From Halorubrum sp. DM2 (GTDB lineage: Archaea > Halobacteriota > Halobacteria > Halobacteriales > Haloferacaceae): a DNA stretch of 64,000 nucleotides. Below, one piece after another: positions 47,868 to 58,020 of this stretch. Location of the stretch: NCBI RefSeq assembly GCF_901686465.1, contig NZ_LR594487.1, positions 1,795,650-1,859,649 of the forward strand, written 5' to 3'. The notes beneath the pieces are model-generated. The model worked only from the letters and a program-made list of their open reading frames with translations. It searched no databases and was not told the DNA's origin. The translations under genes and the position numbers were made by a program. Each line of letters starts with the position of its first letter. Position 1 is the stretch's first letter.

Positions 47868-48176
47868 AGAGGACAGGGGCAGTTCGATCGATAGGCGAAA
47901 CTCTCGAATCTAAACCGTGCGAAAAAGCCATCCCGCCTCCCCGATTTGGACTCGCCGAGACGGCCGATCTCGCTGCGCTCGGTCGCTGCGACTCGCCCGC
48001 TCAAATCGGGTCGGGAGCATTTATACTGCTCACTGTTCGGTCGCTCCGCTCCCTCACGAGTTCGCAGGAAAATGCCGCCTCCCCGATTTGAACGCCGGAA
48101 GACTTCGCTGCGCTCGTCTTCCGAGCCCCCGCTCGCTCCGCTCGCGGGGACGGGGGACAGCTCGATCTTCAGTCGG
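47868..48176 (-). repeat. Decayed tandem copies of tRNA-Phe and its flank
   Basis: This gene-free stretch is explained by tRNA-derived repeats. 'ccgcctccccgatttg' (the tRNA-Phe 3' end and T arm read on the plus strand) occurs at ~47930, ~48074 and in the intact gene at ~48210. The flank 'aactctcgaa.ct.aa.cgt.cgaaaaa' precedes the first and third copies. The second copy (48073-48174) also retains 'ggggacagctcgatcttcag', but ~58 bp of palindromic GC-rich sequence interrupts it. Copies are truncated at the anticodon arm and cannot be functional tRNAs. Confidence 0.75.
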
Positions 48177-48208
48177 AACTCTCGAACTTGAATCGTACCG
48201 AAAAACTA

Positions 48209-48282
48209 TGCCGCCTCCCCGATTTGAACGGGGGACAGCTCGATCTTCAGTCGAGTGCTCTCCCAGTCTGAGCTAAGGCGGC
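48209..48282 (-). tRNA. tRNA-Phe (anticodon GAA)
   Basis: A complete 74-nt cloverleaf on the minus strand. The acceptor GCCGCCT pairs with AGGCGGC, the anticodon loop CTGAAGA gives GAA, and the T arm is cccccgttcaaatcgggg. The discriminator is A. It lies beside decayed copies of itself on its 3' side, the usual position of tRNA-targeted integration scars. Confidence 0.96.
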
Positions 48283-57341: not shown

Positions 57342-57615
57342 GTCCACTTGGGTCCAACCGCCGTTACCGTATAAAAAGGAGAGTCGCTTAACGCGGTTTA
57401 ATCCGGTTTATTCTCGGGTTAGCGGGTTTGTGACGTCTGTTTGGAGTTTGGTGGCTATCTCGGGCGCGATTCGGGTAATTCGTGGTCGGTTCGACTCCGA
57501 TCCGTCGTCGCGCGCGCTATCGAAAACTGGTATCGGTGAAAATCAACGCGCCACAAAAAACACCGCCGAAACCCTAGTCGCTCGATACTACGGAACCGAC
57601 GTTGTGACCGAGACC

Positions 57616-57990
57616 GTCGAAGCCCCAGCCGCGAGGACTCGATGCGCTCGCTGTGGTCCTCAGTCGCTCGCTTCGCTCGCTCCTTGCGGTCCTTGCGTCG
57701 CGCGTCTTCGTCCTCGCGACTGCCCCTTCGAATCCCGCCCCTCCGGAAGACGTTCCTGCTCGCTTCGCTGCGCGGGCTGCGACTTCCGTGCTCCCGCTCG
57801 CTTCGTCGCCGGCGGCGAAGCCGCCGGCTGCCCGTGGCGCTCCGCGCCACGCTGCTCGCGGGAACGCACCGCGACCGCACCTCACGCCTCCCCAGCCTCG
57901 TCTGCGGCTCCCGTTGGTCGCCGCAGACTCCCTCGCGCGGCGCTGCTTCGCGGCCGCCGGTGGCGGCCGCTCGCAGGCGCGCGCCACCGC
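57616..57990 (-). repeat. Structured GC-rich repeat, copy C (expanded; downstream of the amidohydrolase)
   Basis: Minus-strand copy with the same fixed blocks as copies A and D: head 'gcggtggcgcgcgcctgcga', H1 (gcggccgc/gcggccgc, loop cacc region), block 'gccgcgcgagggagtctg', H2 with a new stem (gtctgcggc/gccgcagac), block 'gaggctggggaggcgtgagg', 'ggattcgaaggggcag' and the closing stem 57712-57722 with 57626-57636. It is ~70 nt longer because extra hairpins were added (for example gtggcgcggagcgccac and ccggcggcttcgccgccgg). The head lies 30 nt past the amidohydrolase stop codon. Confidence 0.8.
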
Positions 57991-58020
57991 GAAAAAGATC
58001 GGAGCGACACGTCTTCCTTC

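Follow-up and report, generated by a model that had tools for sequence, protein, structure and literature searches.

An intact tRNA-Phe gene on a 3.45-Mb haloarchaeal chromosome was found to be trailed by an array of two stereotyped hairpin units and the remnant of a third, and both full units terminate in a copy of the 3' end of the gene. In three genomes from two families, about half of the tRNA genes are followed by copies of their own tails. We tentatively read the array, at a little short of an even chance, as a set of displaced attachment sites that were multiplied by recombination between the tail copies and colonised by mobile palindromes. The window referred to below is the whole stretch of 64,000 nucleotides that was analysed.

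The last 21 nt of the tRNA-Phe gene, from the T loop to the discriminator base, are here called X; this name, x' and the names of the unit types are labels coined in this analysis. As the sequence-only reading had stated, the tRNA-Phe 3' end occurs three times beside the intact gene, with + strand copies of X starting at 47931, 48073 and 48209. No match to X appeared in 100 dinucleotide shuffles of the window, and neither strand of its 64 kb holds a further copy at up to three mismatches. The repetition of flanking sequence was borne out as well, 47876-47951 and 48154-48229 being 76% identical across 76 nt of flank and tRNA piece. The description of the copies as decayed tRNA-Phe genes stands for the leftmost piece (47876-47930); the rest are stereotyped units. 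As the copied part of tRNA-Phe is the 3' half and never the whole gene, decay of whole tRNA genes was ruled out.

Along the tRNA strand, the gene is followed by a type 1 unit, a type 2 unit and a worn type 1 unit (Table 1). In the type 1 unit, a two-hairpin module interrupts the T arm of a tRNA 3' half; in the window this module is a 58-nt insert splitting one copy of the tRNA-Phe 3' half, and its first hairpin is capped by a GA/GA internal loop. Leaders similar to the 33-nt leader of this unit also stand behind tRNA in other species. The type 2 unit consists of a hairpin, then x' (an inverted copy of the T arm), a hairpin core and X. Rfam matches above the curated score, in the array and four other loci, were to tRNA only.

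Table 1. Features of the tRNA-Phe array and of the distant two-hairpin module (window coordinates)
Feature	Position	Strand	Remark
tRNA-Phe (GAA), intact; X is its 48209-48229	48209..48282	-	ARAGORN; Rfam tRNA 61.3 bits
Type 1: 33-nt leader after the tRNA, T-rich start	48176..48208	-	
Type 1: exact duplicate of tRNA-Phe from anticodon arm to 5' strand of T stem	48150..48175	-	26 nt, 100%
Type 1: two-hairpin module splitting the T arm of the 3'-half copy	48093..48150	-	
Type 1: X, identical to the tRNA-Phe 3' end	48073..48093	-	0 mismatches
Type 2: hairpin A region, beginning directly behind X	48011..48072	-	
Type 2: x', inverted and imperfect version of the local T arm, able to pair with X	47999..48010	-	
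Type 2: hairpin core separating x' and X	47952..47998	-	
Type 2: copy of X	47931..47951	-	2 mismatches
Decayed type 1: leader and worn anticodon-arm piece, T arm gone	47876..47930	-	76% over 76 nt
Two-hairpin module with nested extra hairpins, inside a dispersed repeat, no tRNA of the window near	57741..57864	-	

When used as a query, the array gave matches in every one of the 59 genomes searched (the own genome among them), a result for which the tRNA gene alone suffices; in many genomes of the same genus, extra matches adjoin tRNA-Phe. Seven of the same-genus relatives belong to Halorubrum, as 300-base stretches of loci L006, L012, L016, L018, L027, L031 and L034 recur without a single difference in named Halorubrum contigs, L034 being from Halorubrum sp. 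GN11_10-6_MGM. Altogether, 62 units were parsed in 45 tRNA-Phe and tRNA-Tyr loci, and at least one unit was present in 38 of the 45, which is not a rate as these loci were picked by likeness to the window. The units follow one another in the orders 1-2, 2-1, 2-1-2, 1-1 and 2-2-2-1 and end in the local X: those behind tRNA-Tyr terminate in the tRNA-Tyr tail, and a variant T stem of the tRNA-Phe in locus L041 recurs in its array. Exact tandem amplification was found with three copies of 122 nt in L041, two of 135 nt in L040 and two of 110 nt in L045, and tRNA-Lys of G027, a genome of the same genus, is followed by four copies at 111-nt spacing. Loci with a common zinc-ribbon gene as right neighbour carry between 0 (L032) and 3 (L017) further X copies, a comparison in which some loci are present twice under two names and one locus with 0 copies (L011) holds a run of N.

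The pattern extends beyond the genus. Two exact copies of X lying 90-120 nt apart were found in 31 stretches of named genomes, 13 of them outside Halorubrum, and the genera concerned are Halorubrum, Haloglomus, Halolamina, Halarchaeum, Haloferax, Halapricum, Halosegnis, Halobacterium, Halobaculum and Halobellus, together with two further genomes. Parts of the units are shared over large distances: Haloglomus halophilum (Natronomonadaceae) and Halorubrum amylolyticum (Haloferacaceae) have an identical run of 54 nt in hairpin A of a type 2 unit, and the arrays at tRNA-Lys of the own genome (G000) and at tRNA-Phe of G007 share 30 nt of hairpin A. Besides, a third form of unit was observed at tRNA-Gly, tRNA-Ala and tRNA-Arg (L063, L071, L072, L075 and L096), where a hairpin has an inverted copy of the acceptor end on one side and a direct copy on the other, and the caps are on the opposite strand in some. 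Downstream units at G027:C1:1370735 and 102741 have hairpins within hairpin loops, up to several levels deep, as if palindromes were favoured as targets by palindromes.

The frequency of tail copies was determined for tRNA genes found with Rfam in the own genome, in G027 and in G058, a genome from another family, by seeking the last 14 nt of each gene at up to two mismatches within 600 nt downstream. An own 3'-end copy was present behind 18 of 45 genes in G000, 24 of 46 in G027 and 24 of 42 in G058, counts in which tandem tRNA-Asp genes sharing one array enter twice in G000 and G027. Mismatched pairs of tail and flank scored in 21/1970, 34/2054 and 20/1716 cases, respectively (75/5740 in total), and upstream flanks held an own-tail copy in 2/30, 1/46 and 0/42. 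Among other members of the phylum, sampled at 30 tRNA loci with one per genome, the own copy was seen in one of three haloarchaea and in none of 27 others, a weak comparison. Capped hairpins were also classed by whether they have a stem of at least 6 and a 2x2 GA/GA internal loop (TC/TC on the other strand). Within 500 nt downstream of tRNAs (66.5 kb), this type made up 46 of the 52 capped hairpins, and in 310 kb of other flank 3 of 42.

Each unit also appears to be fitted to the gene that it follows. In each of 86 distinct units from these three genomes, the stretch that pairs best with the first 13 nt of X was scored; the scores summed to 849, and when the tRNA tails were permuted among the units (2000 permutations) the mean was 750.4 (sd 8.4) and the largest sum 776. 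As 849 lies beyond the permuted maximum, x' fits its own tRNA more closely than the shared features of T arms would give. At least 10 of 13 positions pair with the start of X in 57 of the 86 units, and the test on 97 rows including repeated units gave the same picture. This tuning could stem from selection for a hairpin in DNA or in RNA, or from quasi-palindrome correction in replication.

Islands were sought at tRNA-Phe and tRNA-Tyr, and six relatives have one, 4.8-21 kb long, with the tRNA immediately on one side and a distal copy of X on the other. Those at tRNA-Phe measure 7.2 kb (L034), 9.9 kb (L035), 8.5 kb (L037) and 9.7 kb (L051), and those at tRNA-Tyr 4.8 kb (L038) and about 21 kb (L049/L050). 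An integrase gene adjoins the distal X in all five islands whose ORFs were read (L034, L035, L037, L038 and L051). The sequence-only reading had suggested looking in a relative for an integrase-bearing island between the copies, and five of the six islands are of this kind; the opposite pattern, with identical copies in all relatives and no integrase at tRNA-Phe, was not seen. Three of the island integrases gave Pfam matches to Phage_integrase and a SAM-like N-terminal domain. Identity to the L034 integrase is 86% for L035, 83% for L037, 63% for L038 and about 53% for L051; its nearest phage relatives are those of HHPV4 (45.8%), SNJ2 (44.3%) and HRPV-9 (43.5%), and plasmids hold nearer kin, with identities up to 51.4%. 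The SNJ2 integrase family is described as confined to Halobacteria in the available part of one report (PMC8371274).

All six islands stand directly behind the tRNA, with any units on the far side of the island. The ends of the islands (L034, L035, L037, L051, L038 and L049/L050) were compared by eye with the bodies of the units and no likeness was found, and the notion that the units are shrunken SNJ2-type islands was rejected on this account. The island of 7.2 kb (L034:2012-8373) encodes, besides its integrase, a primase-like protein (phrog_13901) and a protein like a terminase small subunit (phrog_1889); no capsid family was found among the six L034 proteins scanned, and the island looks like a virus satellite. 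By eye, L035 and L037 have several genes in common with it. Locus L036, at tRNA-Phe of G033, begins with a left end like that of the L034 island, followed by an IS605-type gene (by eye) and a part-array about 2 kb further on.

The own genome has six places matching the L034 integrase, none of them inside the window. Four of the six carry a tail copy of 12-18 nt within 1.5 kb (of tRNA-Arg, tRNA-Met, tRNA-Ile and tRNA-Lys), and at the other two no copy of at least 12 nt was found at a tRNA end. No second tail copy or array was found within 1.5 kb on each side of those four integrase loci, so an array does not invariably accompany insertion at a tRNA tail. Another integrase trace was observed in the own genome at L105 (G000:C1:360266-360472), where a 69-residue C-terminal piece, possibly an island remnant, lies about 4.4 kb downstream of a unit-bearing tRNA-Leu (TAA).

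The displaced sites of the relatives exist with and without the two-hairpin module. A type 1 module sits in the T arm of those in L034, L037 and L038, and those in L035, L051 and L217 are plain, L217 being counted as displaced since the 5' part of its tRNA is absent. L050 was set aside as a worn X precedes its module, which therefore belongs to an ordinary type 1 unit. The filled and plain sites are read as the states after and before colonisation by the module, though recombination of a plain site with an adjoining type 1 unit would give the same picture.

The module is not restricted to tRNA tails. A module-like stretch of 124 nt on the minus strand of the window (Table 1) lies inserted in a dispersed hairpin-rich repeat with 82 matches in the own genome, and at this repeat site the module is present in 3 of 20 loci and absent from 17, with L265 and L271 being one place in the count. 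Filled and empty sites were thus observed for the two-hairpin module, without target duplication as judged by eye. Module-like pieces of 79-84% identity were found in 4 of 72,556 plasmid records, and no other part of the units had a match in these records. Two of the four were read, from Haloferax alexandrinus and Salinigranum rubrum, and the plasmid gene table, which lists no RNA genes, has no tRNA entry next to the module; the Haloferax alexandrinus module sits within another capped hairpin. An origin of the units as viral DNA was rejected, with 0 matches in 50,697 phage records. The dispersed repeat itself (window 57540-58000, minus strand; L257-L275) spans about 0.3-0.45 kb, and several of its copies are immediately preceded by a TATA-like stretch (TTTATAA), so that the repeat may represent a structured RNA present in many copies; above the curated score, Rfam matched only a neighbouring tRNA gene in three of its copies.

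According to the reading that we prefer, X would be an attachment site for SNJ2-like tyrosine integrases. Insertion would give rise to another X, displaced downstream, which would stay behind once the island was lost, in which case past islands were probably the founders of the arrays. With two direct copies of X in place, the DNA between them could be multiplied, deleted and exchanged through recombination at X, and tandem arrays would grow, shrink and move between species, a turnover presumably driven by homologous or integrase-made exchange. Displaced copies without tRNA function may then serve as landing sites for putatively mobile palindromic two-hairpin modules, which would split the T arm (type 1) or end up with an inverted tail copy on one side and a direct one on the other (type 2). 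That the modules landed after the displacement, and the route by which x' comes to match each tRNA, we infer.

The repeated insertion and loss proposed in the sequence-only reading survives in part, as islands do occur at X in relatives. Simple insertion and loss is insufficient because the leftovers are stereotyped hairpin units, stand behind about half of the tRNAs and have x' tuned to each tRNA; unlike island ends and the presence of the module elsewhere also count against it. The displaced-attachment-site mechanism faces difficulties of its own, in that it cannot alone account for the fit of x' to the local tRNA, the bodies of the units are unlike island ends and the integrase loci of the own genome lack arrays.

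Among the rival explanations, one takes the units for RNA genes of the RtT kind, that is, for tails of the pre-tRNA that fold, are cut at the tRNA 3' end and persist as stable small RNAs. The tyrT locus of Escherichia coli, to which our comparison with that species refers, has the same layout: it gave four matches to RtT (RF00391), and each of its 178-bp repeats closes with a 19-nt copy of the tRNA-Tyr 3' end and contains, as read from the sequence, an inverted stretch facing the tail. The haloarchaeal units likewise form tandem series downstream of a tRNA, with a local 3'-end copy and an inverted pairing stretch, but they come in two types, have a split T arm and GA-capped hairpins, and occur at many tRNA genes. 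RtT is known for a stable RNA that is freed from the tRNA transcript. The strand sense to the tRNA folds more stably in 94/136 units vs 62/133 control windows, in line with such RNAs. Their helices, however, show no excess of G.U over A.C (55 vs 54; control 52 vs 45) under a loose rule by which most events look like chance, and four stricter rules gave 8/19, 3/5, 2/5 and 1/4, with few long-helix events. Selection at the RNA level was dropped, as this strand test of helix mismatches was without signal. The caps that lie on the other strand in some units, the type 1-like modules at sites without tRNA and the lack of any Rfam family but tRNA above the curated score also speak against RNA genes, as does the covariance model of RtT, which had no match in G000 and among 14 control genomes matched only E. 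coli. We regard such RNA genes as an unlikely explanation.

The units might instead be gene-less integrative cassettes, mobile elements of 110-150 bp flanked by X that tyrosine integrases would excise and insert in trans. The direct copies of X bounding the units, the variation of arrays beside the same neighbour gene and the hairpin parts common to different tRNAs would all fit. Yet no fresh single insertion paired with an empty site was found at a tRNA, a moved unit would keep the x' of its old tRNA when in fact x' fits the new one, and DNA of 110-150 bp is stiff for the formation of circles; on balance we hold this, too, to be not very probable. A fuller version, which we consider rather unlikely, has cassettes of the same length at tRNA tails, bounded by the local X, with the attachment site folded into a hairpin tuned to the tRNA, being moved, stacked and passed among species by the tyrosine integrases of resident viruses or satellites, much like a gene-less integron array. 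More improbable still is an origin by local duplication and decay only, in which slippage copied the 3' half and palindrome correction in replication shaped the hairpins. Tandem copies of one length within a genome, the worn third unit in the window and the growth of hairpins through nesting are what it would produce, and it is already weakened by the occurrence of units at tRNA-Phe in ten named genera, by the 54 nt identical across families and by the integrase islands at the same X.

Some features of the arrays have counterparts among known haloarchaeal elements. As far as the available parts of the reports go, the sites of the SNJ2 family (SNJ2, HHPV4, HRPV-9 and Humcor2) likewise lie at a tRNA 3' end with the integrase beside the distal copy; the attachment sites of SNJ2 and Humcor2 are given there as 13 bp at the tRNA end, whereas X comprises at least 21 nt and the units are gene-less (PMC8371274, PMC7911831). 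The PATEs and small mobile repeats of Haloquadratum walsbyi are short, gene-less and palindromic like the units, and one of them, SMR-A, is about 110 bp long and inserts in palindromes without target duplication; the accessible portion of that source names no tRNA-tail copies or local tuning for them (PMC3119063). Partial tRNA copies at haloarchaeal prophages, in the same portion of that source, resemble the arrays as displaced tRNA pieces at the ends of elements, but they are single copies that bound one element, with no arrays of hairpin units (PMC3119063). A likeness to integron attC sites was dropped, as the box sequences do not fit. No tRNA-tail hairpin arrays of haloarchaea appeared among the titles and openings of abstracts listed in searches of open-access papers, which is weak evidence of absence. 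To our knowledge, such arrays beside many tRNA genes have not been reported.

The tails of tRNA genes are common integration sites in prokaryotes. The leftovers of integration are usually taken as noise, and here they are ordered, stereotyped and tuned to each tRNA. The RtT repeats, an oddity of E. coli, now stand beside a pattern found in ten haloarchaeal genera. When integrated elements of haloarchaea are annotated by copies of tRNA ends, false ends may result if the arrays are ignored. Besides, the role of these tails becomes testable, be they scars, selfish repeats, buffers for the next insertion or small RNAs.
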